NCBI GenBank assembly: GCA_008933995.1 | Contig: WARS01000013.1 | Location: 8,252,089 to 8,316,088, forward strand | Length of the DNA stretch: 64,000 nucleotides | Reading direction: 5' to 3' | DNA from: Datnioides undecimradiatus | Lineage: Eukaryota; Chordata; Actinopteri; Lobotiformes; Datnioididae | In this document: positions 50,809 to 64,000 of the stretch, one piece after another | Numbering within the stretch: position 1 is the first letter of the stretch | How the letters are laid out: the number at the start of each line of letters is the position of its first letter | Translations under genes and position numbers: made by a program | Notes under the pieces: generated by a model | The model's database searches: none | What the model saw: the letters and a program-made list of their open reading frames with translations, nothing else | What the model was told of the DNA's origin: nothing

Positions 50809-53800
50809 ATGGACTCTACACGTAGATTTGGGAAATACAGAGTGGAGCGGGAAGTGCTGGATGAGGAGAGATTGGAGGAGTTAACGCAGAGAAAAACGTT
50901 CTCTGATACTCACCCTTCTTTAACTGACCGGCTTAAACAAGCTCTAAAGTAAGGGAAATTTAACTTTGAAGCCTATTGTTGTGTAGATGTAAATATCTGA
51001 GCTGATTTTTTTTTATCAAAGAGCCATTTTCAATAAATGTATGCTTTAAAATAACTTTTTCCATATATCCTTTAAATCCCTTCCAGATGTTCAGTACCCA
51101 AACTGAAAAAAAGTGTGATGAGCAGCTTGCCTGTGTTTTACTGGCTGCCCAAGTACTCAGTTTGGGACTATGGCATGCCAGACCTCATCTCTGGCATCAG
51201 TGTGGGCATAATGCACCTGCCACAAGGTATGACATTAGTCACATTTAGACAATATTTTGTAAATTACGGTAATACTTCTTAAAATGATTTGTTTATAAAC
51301 TGAGACAGGTGTAACAACACTTGACTTTTACAGGTATGGCGTATGCTTTGTTGGCCTCCTTACCTCCTGTATATGGGCTCTACACATCCCTTTATCCAGC
51401 ATTGATCTATATCTTGTTTGGAACTTCACGTCATATCTCCATCGGTAGGTCGCGAGAGAGACATACATATAATACTATGTCATTATAATATCGCTAATAA
51501 CCTGCTATCTTTTGTCATGTTCAGGTACGTTTACTGTGCTCAGCATCATGGTTGGTAGTGTCACAGAGAAACTTGCTCCAGATGTGGATTTCCTCAAAAC
51601 AAATGGGACCAACATCACAGCAGAGGTGGATATTACTGCCCGGGACTCATACAGGGTGCAGGTGGCGGCTGCTACCACTGTCCTCTGTGGACTCATTCAG
51701 GTCTGGACACAACTTCTCACAGGAAAAAATTAATGTCTTATTTTATTGTTACAGCTGTCAGAACACATATATACATAAATTATTGTTTTTATAGGTGGTA
51801 CTGGGTCTGGTTAAGTTTGGATTTGTGGGAACTTACTTGTCTGAACCTCTGGTGCGGGCTTACACAACAGCTGCTGCAGCTCATGCTGTGGTGGCACAAC
51901 TGAAGTACATCTTTGGAGTTTCGTCAACACGGTTTAGCGGTCCCTTCTCACTGGTGTATGTGAGTACTGTCAAGTATGTGGATGTAATTGCTGTTGTTAT
52001 AGTTGCAGCTCTTTAAATACAAAAAGTTTCATTTTTATTTGATATTTCTAACTTTAATTTAAACAAGTCTCTTGACACAACAAATGTTTCTAAGCAGGCA
52101 GTAAAAGAGCTCTCACATAGTTGCATATGAACACGCATCATTAAGTTAACAATCACAGACTGTATGGCTCAGCCCAACAGCGTTCAAGTCATATGAGAGA
52201 TAAAATTAGACTATTTAAAACAATTAGAAATCTGATGATACATATTTTTGATGTTGCTGCTTGAATACTTATTAAAGGCAAAATTTCCAGATTCATCTCC
52301 AAGCCCTGTGGGCAAACTGCAGTGCAAAAAGGCATTTTTACCTCAGATGAGGATCTGGTCTGATAACTGTCAGGAAGAGGAAAAAAATGCTTTGCTAAAG
52401 TAAGCAGGGAGTTTACTAAGAATGGCTTTGTAGATAAAAAGGTATGTATGAACCTTGTTTTCACAGTTTAGTACATCTGGTTAACATGTACTAATTCTGT
52501 AATATACACACACTCTGTCCCAAGTTCTGATGACTTTGTTTGAGCAGTAACCCACAAAATATGTGGGACTATTTTCATCTGACACCAATGTCACTATGTT
52601 GCTTCACTTCTCTGGTCACAGAAAATGCAGAGCACCGTAAAAAGACAATCCAATTTTTTTTATTTTAGTATTTACTTTAATAAAGCTGTATAATTAACCT
52701 CAGAGAATAAGCTAACAAAGTAAAGTTGCCATTTTGTAAATAAGTATGACTTAGAATAACAATAACAATTGGTGTGTGCAGCCAAGCATTTATACTTTTA
52801 GGTAACATCTTTCTGCTCTATCTTTCTTTTTCAGGCTCTGAAGGATGTTTGCTCTTTGCTGCCCAACACTCATCTTCCCACCCTGGTGGTCAGTGCTGTG
52901 TCCATCGTGTTTTTAATTGCAGCCAAAGAGCTCAACTCTTTTCTCAGCCCAAAGCTGCCAGTGCCCATCCCAGTGGAGCTCATCACAGTTAGTTGACACG
53001 AGGACACGCTCTCTTGCCTTTCTTCATGTTATCACCTCTGTGCTTGGTGCTGCTGCTGATGTTGCAGCACTAAAAAAAATACAGACACAGTGGAACCAAG
53101 CAGCTGAGTCAGCAGTAGCACCAGGGCCTCTGCTTGTGTGCAGTTCACAGCAAAAATGATTTACTAGATTTTTAATGAGTGACGGTTCCAAATGTGTTGT
53201 GATATGTGGCTTCCTTACATGTGTTTGTTTTTCCAATCTCTATGTTTTCTGTGATTGCTTTAGATTGTGGCAGGGACACTGATATCGACTTATTCCCACT
53301 TGAACACCAACTACACAGTTTCAGTTGTTGGAGAAATTCCTAGCGGGTGAGCATTTGGATTTGACTGATTTGATTTCTGTAATTATCTGTTGAAGTCAAC
53401 TTGGGGAGTACAAACTCTTCTTTGTTGTCATTTACTGGTGCACCAGTCTTAGTTCTCCCCGGTTACCAGATGTGAGTCTTTTTGGAGAGGTTATTGGTGA
53501 TGCTTTTGCACTGGCCATCGTTGGATATGCCATATGCATTTCACTTGGAAAAACATTTGCACTGAAACATGGATACAAGGTGGACAGTAACCAGGTAAAC
53601 CACAGCTCCCATCAAATACTAGTTTAATTCTATTAACACCATTGTCATACAATCATTTTCAGATTCTCTGTTCTTTCTGTCTGTCTTCATCCATTTGCAG
53701 GAGCTGGTAGCTCTGGGTGTCAGTAATACAGTAGGAGGCTTCTTCCAGTGCTACTCTGTCTGTCCCTCTATGTCTAGAAGTCTTATCCAAGACACCACTG

Positions 53801-57956: not shown

Positions 57957-58077
57957 TATTTTAATGTGTCTCTTTCATTTTATTTTTAAGTTGTGTATAT
58001 ATATATATATACACATACACACACACACCTTGTCTTTGTAGTAAATAGACGCTGAGAACACATGAACTTAATTTAAC

Positions 58078-58083
58078 TTTATT
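58078..58083 (-). terminator. p4htm: Poly(A) signal of left-arm p4htm
   Basis: TTTATT on plus, AATAAA on minus, about 660 bases after the stop codon. Its mirror copy is at 63928-63933. Confidence 0.5.
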
Positions 58084-58738
58084 TAGGGTGGGAGGGTGAT
58101 ACAACACATTTTTTAAATAAAATACAAACAAATAAATAAATCAAATCTACAAACAGTTCCTTTCAATAAGAGACAGAGTCCATTGTCCCCTGGTGTTTTG
58201 CTGCGTGTCAACCAGCAGCTGTTCAACAAGGTTATGCAAGGCCAATGCCAGGAAAAAAAAAATAAAATTGGCAGAAAATAATGATTAATTCAAGGAATAA
58301 AGACAAGGCAACATGCATCACACTGACAGTGTGTGAGCCTTTTTGGTCATGGCAGCAATAACAAGGTAGGACACTGAAATGTGTACAGTAGCCATTTCAA
58401 TTTTCAAGTGCAATTTTTTTGCTAACAGCAAGAGCAAAATCTGTGAAGCTAATTCATGCAAAGGGATTTTTTTCTGTCTCAACTCCTTTAATGAGTTTCT
58501 AGTGCAACATTCCTAAAATGGGAAATTATAGCAGATTAAAAAATAACAGGATAACAATATCCAAGCAATATTTAACAAAAGCATCTCTTTACAATTGCAT
58601 AAACCCACTGTGACCTCATTCCCTGAATAATTCTTGTCTCTACATTTACATACTGGCCACAGAGGGTGTTGCCAAAGACATTGTGCACAGGACTGAGGAA
58701 GGCTAGGTAGACTTTTTTTTAGGAATTTGGTTTATGAG

Positions 58739-60709
58739 CTACAAGTCCTGATGGATATCAGAACTCTGTATGTCCGGGTTCAGAGTGAGACCTTCATCCT
58801 CCTCCTCCTCTGGCTGCTGTGAAACCAGATGTTGGTAACGAGCCTGCCGTTGGTAATCCGGATCAATGTTGATCCATTTATTTGCGACCCACTTAGTGCC
58901 ATGAGTGACCACACAACCCCCATGCAAAGCATATTCATCCTGCTCTCCCACCCAACCTATTGAGAAAAAAAGACTCAATTAATGGTGGTGTCCTTCATGT
59001 GGTTTCTGTTTTTAAAAGTGCTCACAGTGATGATCTGGCTATTGAACAAACTGCTTCAACTGGTCAGTGAAATCCTGACATTCATCATCCTCATTGGATG
59101 TATTTTAATCACAATGGTGATTATATAATTTCTAATTTATTGTGAGAATTAGGTCAAAGTTTTCACTTATCCAGCACAACAGCTACTAGATTGACTGGTA
59201 CATGGCCTTATGCAGACATTCATGGCTCCTGAACAATATGTCCTCACAGCTCTTTGGCAATCCTCTGACTTTTAATTTTGCGCTACCATGAGGTTAATTC
59301 ATCCAACATTTTATTTTATGACCAATGAGCTGCAAAACTATTGATGTTTCAATCAGCCCCAATTATACTTTTTGTTTAGTGCTGAGTAGAAAATGATAGC
59401 ATGCTAACTTGCTAAAATAATTAATAAACAGCTGTATATTAACATTGTCTTTGAATAGAAATTTCATGTAAAATGGAACCACTGGCATTTTAGTATTGGC
59501 AAACAATGTGGCACACTGGGTGCAAAACATTACTTTTACAATAAAATCAAAATATCTGTTTACGTTAAATGAATTTAAATAAATTTGGATAGGAATCATA
59601 CCTCTTCCATCAGAAAGGTAATTATACCAGAAAACAGCTGTCCCCTTGGTTGGCTTCACCCTCAGGTTACTCTTGTTACAATTCCTTCTGGTGTCCAAAA
59701 GGTCGACATCATTCTGTATGAGAGACTGAGACACATAATCAAACTCAGTGAGGCAGTTTGCTTAACGTTTGGCCCATGCACTAACTGACAAACAAGTGAG
59801 TTAACACAGATGTGAAAGACATGCACAGTATGTACACAATACTTTTGCAGGGCTCTCCATACACATTTCCAGACCCACACACAATTACGCACCACTTCAT
59901 CATAGGTCCTGTTGTCTGCCACAGGGAATGCGGTCTCCCCACCCCCCTCAACAGAGTTCAGGTAGAAGAGAACTGTGATGTACCTAGGTGTGCAACACAG
60001 ATTTAAATTGACACACACATGTATGGTGCAAACAAACACAGACACACATCCACAAACACTTTTCAAACATGTAACAAGCACACAATTTTTCCCTGAGTTG
60101 ACAATGTAGACTCACACAAACTAACATGCCAGCTGCCACAATGGAGTGTCATAGCACAGCTCACTAATCACACCGGATGGATGAATTCAGATCTCAACAT
60201 CCACAGATTTTTTTTGTTGAGGAAACATCACTTCAGTCGTTGCCTCAGTGATCTCACCTGCAGGACGTCTCGAAAGGAGCGGAGGTGTTGGCTGCAAGGC
60301 GTGTGTGTGTGCAGGCTGTTTCAGGATACACAGGGCCACTGTCATGGTGGGCGTGGTAGTGTCCTCCCTCTTCATAGCGTACCACCTGGAGCGGCTCACT
60401 GAGGTCCACTAATGTAGGTGGGAGCCGAGTGAGGCGGGTCACCCTTTGTTAAAGAAACGTAAAGAAAATAATGATAAAAAAATTGTCCTTTAGCTGTACA
60501 ACAGTTATTATGTCACCACAGCAATAGTTTGACTTGCTCACTATACCTTTTCTTGATGTCTTGGAGGACCTGGTGTGCTCCTTTGCCCTGGTACAGCCAT
60601 GTGTGCCTGCTGTTCCTCACCAGCTGACTCCTCTTTACCCCTCGCTGCATCAGGAAACGCTGGAAGGCATCATTGCTCAGGAGCCTGAACTCCTCCAGAC
60701 TCAGCAAAC
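58739..60709 (-). CDS. p4htm: Transmembrane prolyl 4-hydroxylase, 5'-truncated copy A
   Basis: P4HTM is an endoplasmic-reticulum membrane 2-oxoglutarate and Fe(II) dioxygenase related to HIF prolyl hydroxylases. Five exons are present on the minus strand: 60709-60547, 60443-60258, 59983-59893, 59725-59602, 58956-58739, about 260 residues. They cover the end of the EF-hand region ([19 protein letters not shown]) and the whole catalytic domain: HxD iron ligands in [38 protein letters not shown], and the distal His and 2-oxoglutarate Lys in [14 protein letters not shown]. The expected N-terminal exons with the TM segment and EF-hands should lie to the right but are replaced by the palindrome centre. 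The gene is tail-to-tail with slc26a6. The reading frame is intact where present. Confidence 0.9.
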
Positions 60710-60985
60710 CTGTCCAAAATATGAATATGTACATGTTATTCTGATGCTGTGACTCATTTCTTGATTTTCTGACACAGTTTACTGTCTTTCTCTCATAGTA
60801 ACGATATACAGTATACTGAAGATTACCATGGTACAGACTTAATGTGTAAATTTTAACTTGAGGCTGATAAGAGTTTAAGCTGATTATGATTATAATGTGA
60901 ATATCGTTTCACATTCATATAAATAAAATTAGTCCCTGAACTGTATATCACATGTGCTCTATATCCAAGATTATACATGGTACAG

Positions 60986-61025
<40 letters not shown>

Positions 61026-61301
61026 CTGTACCATGTATAATCTTGGATATAGAGCACATGTGATATACAGTTCAGGGACTAATTTTATTTATATGAATGT
61101 GAAACGATATTCACATTATAATCATAATCAGCTTAAACTCTTATCAGCCTCAAGTTAAAATTTACACATTAAGTCTGTACCATGGTAATCTTCAGTATAC
61201 TGTATATCGTTACTATGAGAGAAAGACAGTAAACTGTGTCAGAAAATCAAGAAATGAGTCACAGCATCAGAATAACATGTACATATTCATATTTTGGACA
61301 G
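60710..61301. other. Palindrome centre between the two p4htm copies
   Basis: About 590 bases that should be a p4htm intron. The sequence is self-complementary around 61005/61006, inside an (AT)n tract at about 60988-61023 flanked by GTACAGAAAA and TTTTCTGTAC. Because (AT)n is itself self-complementary, the exact junction may be anywhere in the tract. The two identical 68-codon open frames here (60853-61059 minus, 60952-61158 plus) are products of the symmetry. Confidence 0.85.
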
Positions 61302-63272
61302 GTTTGCTGAGTCTGGAGGAGTTCAGGCTCCTGAGCAATGATGCCTTCCAGCGTTTCCTGATGCAGCGAGGGGTAAAGAGGAGTCAGCTGGTGAGGAACA
61401 GCAGGCACACATGGCTGTACCAGGGCAAAGGAGCACACCAGGTCCTCCAAGACATCAAGAAAAGGTATAGTGAGCAAGTCAAACTATTGCTGTGGTGACA
61501 TAATAACTGTTGTACAGCTAAAGGACAATTTTTTTATCATTATTTTCTTTACGTTTCTTTAACAAAGGGTGACCCGCCTCACTCGGCTCCCACCTACATT
61601 AGTGGACCTCAGTGAGCCGCTCCAGGTGGTACGCTATGAAGAGGGAGGACACTACCACGCCCACCATGACAGTGGCCCTGTGTATCCTGAAACAGCCTGC
61701 ACACACACACGCCTTGCAGCCAACACCTCCGCTCCTTTCGAGACGTCCTGCAGGTGAGATCACTGAGGCAACGACTGAAGTGATGTTTCCTCAACAAAAA
61801 AAATCTGTGGATGTTGAGATCTGAATTCATCCATCCGGTGTGATTAGTGAGCTGTGCTATGACACTCCATTGTGGCAGCTGGCATGTTAGTTTGTGTGAG
61901 TCTACATTGTCAACTCAGGGAAAAATTGTGTGCTTGTTACATGTTTGAAAAGTGTTTGTGGATGTGTGTCTGTGTTTGTTTGCACCATACATGTGTGTGT
62001 CAATTTAAATCTGTGTTGCACACCTAGGTACATCACAGTTCTCTTCTACCTGAACTCTGTTGAGGGGGGTGGGGAGACCGCATTCCCTGTGGCAGACAAC
62101 AGGACCTATGATGAAGTGGTGCGTAATTGTGTGTGGGTCTGGAAATGTGTATGGAGAGCCCTGCAAAAGTATTGTGTACATACTGTGCATGTCTTTCACA
62201 TCTGTGTTAACTCACTTGTTTGTCAGTTAGTGCATGGGCCAAACGTTAAGCAAACTGCCTCACTGAGTTTGATTATGTGTCTCAGTCTCTCATACAGAAT
62301 GATGTCGACCTTTTGGACACCAGAAGGAATTGTAACAAGAGTAACCTGAGGGTGAAGCCAACCAAGGGGACAGCTGTTTTCTGGTATAATTACCTTTCTG
62401 ATGGAAGAGGTATGATTCCTATCCAAATTTATTTAAATTCATTTAACGTAAACAGATATTTTGATTTTATTGTAAAAGTAATGTTTTGCACCCAGTGTGC
62501 CACATTGTTTGCCAATACTAAAATGCCAGTGGTTCCATTTTACATGAAATTTCTATTCAAAGACAATGTTAATATACAGCTGTTTATTAATTATTTTAGC
62601 AAGTTAGCATGCTATCATTTTCTACTCAGCACTAAACAAAAAGTATAATTGGGGCTGATTGAAACATCAATAGTTTTGCAGCTCATTGGTCATAAAATAA
62701 AATGTTGGATGAATTAACCTCATGGTAGCGCAAAATTAAAAGTCAGAGGATTGCCAAAGAGCTGTGAGGACATATTGTTCAGGAGCCATGAATGTCTGCA
62801 TAAGGCCATGTACCAGTCAATCTAGTAGCTGTTGTGCTGGATAAGTGAAAACTTTGACCTAATTCTCACAATAAATTAGAAATTATATAATCACCATTGT
62901 GATTAAAATACATCCAATGAGGATGATGAATGTCAGGATTTCACTGACCAGTTGAAGCAGTTTGTTCAATAGCCAGATCATCACTGTGAGCACTTTTAAA
63001 AACAGAAACCACATGAAGGACACCACCATTAATTGAGTCTTTTTTTCTCAATAGGTTGGGTGGGAGAGCAGGATGAATATGCTTTGCATGGGGGTTGTGT
63101 GGTCACTCATGGCACTAAGTGGGTCGCAAATAAATGGATCAACATTGATCCGGATTACCAACGGCAAGCTCGTTACCAACATCTGGTTTCACAGCAGCCA
63201 GAGGAGGAGGAGGATGAAGGTCTCACTCTGAACCCGGACATACAGAGTTCTGATATCCATCAGGACTTGTAG
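61302..63272 (+). CDS. p4htm: Transmembrane prolyl 4-hydroxylase, 5'-truncated copy B (mirror of copy A)
   Basis: Exact mirror of the left copy: exons 61302-61464, 61568-61753, 62028-62118, 62286-62409, 63055-63272. The coding sequence starts in codon phase after an acceptor (TTTGGACAG) with no upstream exon in the 300 bases to the palindrome centre, so it cannot yield a full protein by itself. It encodes the same catalytic domain and ends [11 protein letters not shown]. Being identical down to introns and homopolymer lengths, it is either an assembly duplicate of one locus or an extremely recent copy. Confidence 0.85.
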
Positions 63273-64000
63273 CTCATAAACCAAATTCCTAAAAAAAAGT
63301 CTACCTAGCCTTCCTCAGTCCTGTGCACAATGTCTTTGGCAACACCCTCTGTGGCCAGTATGTAAATGTAGAGACAAGAATTATTCAGGGAATGAGGTCA
63401 CAGTGGGTTTATGCAATTGTAAAGAGATGCTTTTGTTAAATATTGCTTGGATATTGTTATCCTGTTATTTTTTAAACTGCTATAATTTCCCATTTTAGGA
63501 ATGTTGCACTAGAAACTCATTAAAGGAGTTGAGACAGAAAAAAATCCCTTTGCATGAATTAGCTTCACAGATTTTGCTCTTGCTGTTAGCAAAAAAATTG
63601 CACTTGAAAATTGAAATGGCTACTGTACACATTTCAGTGTCCTACCTTGTTATTGCTGCCATGACCAAAAAGGCTCACACACTGTCAGTGTGATGCATGT
63701 TGCCTTGTCTTTATTCCTTGAATTAATCATTATTTTCTGCCAATTTTATTTTTTTTTTCCTGGCATTGGCCTTGCATAACCTTGTTGAACAGCTGCTGGT
63801 TGACACGCAGCAAAACACCAGGGGACAATGGACTCTGTCTCTTATTGAAAGGAACTGTTTGTAGATTTGATTTATTTATTTGTTTGTATTTTATTTAAAA
63901 AATGTGTTGTATCACCCTCCCACCCTAAATAAAGTTAAATTAAGTTCATGTGTTCTCAGCGTCTATTTACTACAAAGACAAGGTGTGTGTGTGTATGTGT
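63273..64000. other. 3' UTR of p4htm copy B, palindrome arm
   Basis: Mirror of 58011-58738. It contains the p4htm 3' UTR and its AATAAA at 63928-63933, then the beginning of the mirrored gap before slc26a6. The window ends in a (GT)n tract. Confidence 0.7.
63928..63933 (+). terminator. p4htm: Poly(A) signal of right-arm p4htm
   Basis: AATAAA about 656 bases after the stop codon; mirror of the signal at 58078-58083. Confidence 0.5.

Follow-up and report, generated by a model that had tools for sequence, protein, structure and literature searches.

False duplications in vertebrate assemblies are mostly separated by a gap according to the available portion of one study, which assigns some cases to a 'false chimeric PacBio palindromic sequence' with the length of a raw read, 7-17 kb (PMC9516828). 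Homotype duplications, as treated in the accessible text of a second study, often lie at contig boundaries and have a size of about one read length (PMC8081667). Errors of this kind are described for reads as well. Missed adapters and polymerase strand jumps are described, in the excerpted account, as read artefacts that are caught and corrected by a patch phase before assembly (PMC6304105), and inverted chimeric (palindromic) reads are reported in another partially available source to result from whole-genome amplification, when displaced strands anneal back during synthesis (PMC13265396).

We analysed a stretch of 64,000 bases, referred to here as the window (C315:8252089-8316088, on a contig of 23,285,271 bases in an assembly of 581,297,614 bases and 497 contigs), together with the 249,000 bases that follow it on C315. 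The known bases among these 313,000 number 301,066. The window ends in a palindrome of 5,990 bases, each arm of which carries the 3' half of a p4htm gene. We consider this palindrome to be an assembly artefact at a contig end rather than real DNA, with a probability of roughly 0.93, and hence to be ordinary.

Mirrored arms and the AT runs at their ends

The two arms (Table 1) are reverse complements in strict register, each 2,995 bases long, with paired positions that add up to 122011 and with neither spacer nor indel. The first-pass annotation, made from the same letters, had described a perfect palindrome without a spacer; the register and the missing spacer stand, but two of the 2,995 pairs are mismatched. 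One of these pairs (58844/63167, C against T in the left-arm reading) falls within the final p4htm coding exon and is silent as read from the translations, the change from CAG to CAA retaining Gln. The other (58535/63476) is A against T. The arms had also been given a length of 'at least' 2,995 bases, as though they ran on past the window, and this part fails because the contig continues with N directly after the right arm. A ten-base homopolymer that had been called the same in both arms is indeed mirrored, as A10 at 58253-58262 and T10 at 63749-63758. With 2,993 of the 2,995 pairs matching, the arms exhibit the near-identity that serves as a criterion of false duplication (as in PMC9516828).

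Table 1. Coordinates (window numbering) of the palindrome, its AT runs, its mismatches and its p4htm exons
Feature	Position	Strand	Description
Left arm	58011..61005	+	Continuous with the left flank; bears the p4htm 3' half on the - strand
Right arm	61006..64000	-	Inverted copy with 2 mismatches and no indel; terminates at the N run
(AT)17, self-complementary	60989..61022	.	Contains the fold point 61005/61006
(TA)8	57996..58011	.	Outer boundary of the duplicated unit; the right arm ends after one base of the run's mirror image
Mismatch with 63167	58844	.	Synonymous Gln codon, CAG left / CAA right, p4htm strand
Mismatch with 63476	58535	.	A/T difference, 3' of the p4htm stop codon
p4htm exon	60546..60710	-	Human P4HTM 242-296; most 5' exon found at the locus
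p4htm exon	60257..60448	-	Human P4HTM 295-358
p4htm exon	59893..59985	-	Human P4HTM 358-388
p4htm exon	59594..59737	-	Human P4HTM 385-432
Last p4htm coding exon	58739..58957	-	Human P4HTM 430-480, then open to the stop codon
Mirror copies of the five p4htm exons	61301..63272	+	61301-61465, 61563-61754, 62026-62118, 62274-62417, 63054-63272

In a search with a 20-base seed, the palindrome at 58011-64000 was the sole inverted repeat of at least 60 bases in the window. Only six other perfect palindromes of at least 28 bases were found in the 313,000 bases scanned, all of them 28-32 bases long and inside the central AT run, and a chance origin of the 5,990-base structure is therefore out of the question. 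Pure alternating AT runs of at least 16 bases occur three times in the 301,066 known bases, and two of the three border the duplicated unit, one at either end. The left half of the central run measures 17 bases by itself, its full 34 bases being a product of the mirroring. An (AT)n run is its own reverse complement, so that a contig ending in such a run could be continued by the reverse complement of its own sequence.

The p4htm exons and the N run

An open reading frame (ORF) around 60546-60710 matches human transmembrane prolyl 4-hydroxylase in its solved structure (6tp5, E 5.1e-11), and five exons per arm match human P4HTM residues 242-480. The residue ranges were obtained with a query that we take to be the human P4HTM protein. 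None of the four p4htm ORFs had a Pfam family at E 0.01, and the identification as p4htm consequently rests on structure 6tp5 and the human protein query. Of eight ORFs submitted to Pfam, seven lacked any family at E 0.001, and Rfam at gathering thresholds returned nothing in the window. To the left of p4htm, the ORF at 51473-51733 has a weak match to the sulfate permease family PF00916 (E 0.00067, below the family cut-off).

No exons for the part of p4htm before about human residue 242 were found at the locus in the 113,000 bases searched, 11,934 of which are N. A search of the full assembly matched the upstream portion of the human query on C469 alone, at positions 31-99 of 350 (E 9.6e-11) and 5-34 (E 0.785), and a query built from two upstream exons of this C469 paralogue gave two matches, both on C469. 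The interval C469:7291872-7295561 holds a second p4htm-like gene, with the upstream exons that are missing from the copy in the window. Among the five exons listed on both contigs, identity to the human query favours C315 over C469 in four (76 vs 51%, 69 vs 50%, 79 vs 61% and 43 vs 34%), and the order is reversed in the last exon (52 vs 66%, over unlike ranges). Because the C315 copy is thus nearer to the human query in four of five exons, upstream exons of the C315 type should have come up in these searches had the assembly contained them. The lack of 5' exons pointed out in the first-pass annotation is accordingly borne out at the locus and elsewhere, the C469 paralogue excepted, but it does not separate an artefact from a real duplication, since the exons could sit in the N run in either case. 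A 306-base piece of the arm adjoining the AT run was found twice in the assembly, once per arm, so that no other contig shows the sequence past the AT run.

The N run spans 11,934 bases (64001-75934; C315:8316089-8328022), begins at the base directly after the right arm and is the sole N run in the 313,000 bases examined. No N lies between the two copies, and the outer flank of the right arm consists of N only. The arm thus terminates where homotype duplications are placed, at a contig boundary (PMC8081667), provided that the N run is read as a gap. A withheld stretch would read N as well. We take the run to be a scaffold gap on two grounds, the arm coming to its end at the edge of a microsatellite and the sequence beyond beginning in a near-identical myosin repeat; a natural contig end is probably the better reading of where the arm stops. 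Immediately beyond the N run begins a stretch of 469 bases that recurs at 97.9% identity some 17.7 kb away, at 93658-94126, within a myosin heavy chain region. Such a near-identical repeat is an ordinary place for a contig to break, which counts in favour of an artefact.

Four ORFs to the right of the N run were compared with Pfam; two match Myosin_head and one Myosin_tail_1, and the ORF nearest the N run matches DUF5094 alone, below the cut-off. Judging from the translations, the first myosin gene may also be cut by the N run, with its tail part missing. From C315:8328023 onward (75935-118447 in window numbering), the myosin heavy chain region contains similar pieces in both orientations, for example 89245-89478 and 118214-118447 (98.7%) or 93274-93779 and 113522-114034 (95.4%). 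This region looks like a gene cluster and not a perfect palindrome.

Origin of the right arm

The right arm probably has no counterpart in the genome. If the palindrome is an artefact, the true sequence would enter p4htm from the left flank, cross the 3' half of the gene and reach an (AT)n run in an intron, where the assembly graph, a gap-filling step or a hairpin-forming library molecule might turn round. The same 3 kb, from the same or the other allele, would then be copied backwards as far as the next AT run, where the scaffold gap would begin. Candidate routes to such a copy include a fold in the graph or during gap filling, a missed adapter, and a self-primed hairpin, in which the end of a library molecule would fold and prime on itself. 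Since AT runs flank the duplicated unit on either side, the likeliest artefact route seems to be a step that halts or reverses on meeting AT repeats. The p4htm 5' exons would belong in or around the 11,934-N stretch, and the two differences between the arms might be errors or might stem from assembly or polishing with reads from both alleles. The first-pass annotation had leaned towards a fold-back artefact, and this is supported by the present findings: the last base of the right arm abuts the sole N run of the 313,000 bases, and the fold and the outer edge both fall at self-complementary AT runs, which are two of the three long ones in the known sequence. Three inverted pairs passed the filter in the 313,000 bases, and the window palindrome was the sole one with adjoining arms, which also speaks for an artefact.

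Some observations weigh on the other side. No other fold-backs were seen in the rest of the 313,000 bases under the same filter, which counts against an artefact. A control with protein kinases, in which 120 of 1,723 candidates were scored, likewise gave no pairs on the same contig and opposite strands with equal scores, as judged by eye among the listed rows of the 155 matches. The two mismatches, one of them silent, argue against the fold-back of one molecule unless alleles were mixed, polishing intervened or errors arose. A real long palindrome could also break a contig by itself, and a real duplication would also be compatible with the missing 5' exons; both points must be listed against an artefact.

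AT repeats, like palindromes, are prone to breaks and inverted duplication. As a rival reading, fold-back at an (AT)n hairpin in the p4htm intron, after a break or the stalling of a fork there, could have copied 3 kb and produced a real and very young spacerless palindrome of about 6 kb. Its arms would be near-identical through youth or gene conversion, and p4htm would be split, with its 5' exons beyond the right arm, where the N run could hold them. Fold-back priming at breaks is one proposed route to inverted duplications, and DNA palindromes are described as hotspots of breaks and inverted duplication, in the available portions of two reports (PMC10622511, PMC4245961); two substitutions with no indels also fit two separately inherited copies. 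We nevertheless regard such a duplication as very improbable, since only N lies beyond the right arm, AT runs bound the duplicated unit on both sides, p4htm would be left broken, and a spacerless palindrome of 6 kb is expected to be unstable. That a real spacerless palindrome of this size, possibly polymorphic in the species, itself caused the contig break is likewise highly doubtful.

Within the artefact reading, the right arm might represent the other allele, inverted and joined through the AT run, and would then be a heterotype and not a homotype duplication. Two substitutions and no indels over 2,995 bases look allelic, and the assembly seems to keep haplotype-like duplicates elsewhere, such as the equal-scoring kinase matches at nearly equal positions on C473 and C474. 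However, this origin requires both passage through a 34-base simple repeat and inverted placement, and a fold-back polished with reads of both alleles would give the same differences; we therefore consider it rather unlikely. Among the kinase matches listed, equal or near-equal scores were observed for the contig pairs C473/C474, C215/C218, C205/C207 and C15/C230, at nearly equal positions in three of these four pairs, which suggests that haplotype duplicates have been kept in the assembly.

As an artefact, the palindrome matters for annotation alone. Gene counts should exclude the inverted p4htm 3' half at 61006-64000, and p4htm on C315 is best labelled as interrupted by a gap, not as truncated or duplicated. 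Were the palindrome real, it would be a fresh case of a germ-line inverted duplication in an animal with an AT microsatellite as its seed.

Relation to described duplication artefacts

The palindromic reads obtained after whole-genome amplification share the mirror geometry of the present locus; in the portion of that report at hand they are amplified tardigrade mitochondrial reads, whereas the structure described here lies in a contig of a vertebrate assembly (PMC13265396). A homotype duplication resembles it in being an extra near-identical copy at an apparent contig end beside a gap. In the accessible text, however, those copies are in tandem with a gap between them, and here the second copy is inverted and joined without a gap (PMC8081667).

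Comparison with the palindromic false duplications of PMC9516828, as far as the available part of that study describes them, reveals differences. The fold at this locus is in an AT microsatellite. The palindrome is 5,990 bases long, below the 7-17 kb given there, and the N run follows the second copy, whereas the gap of those cases lies between the copies. The smaller size and the gapless junction both count against an artefact. Shared with these cases are the palindromic form, the kilobase size and the setting in a vertebrate assembly, as a probable false duplication.
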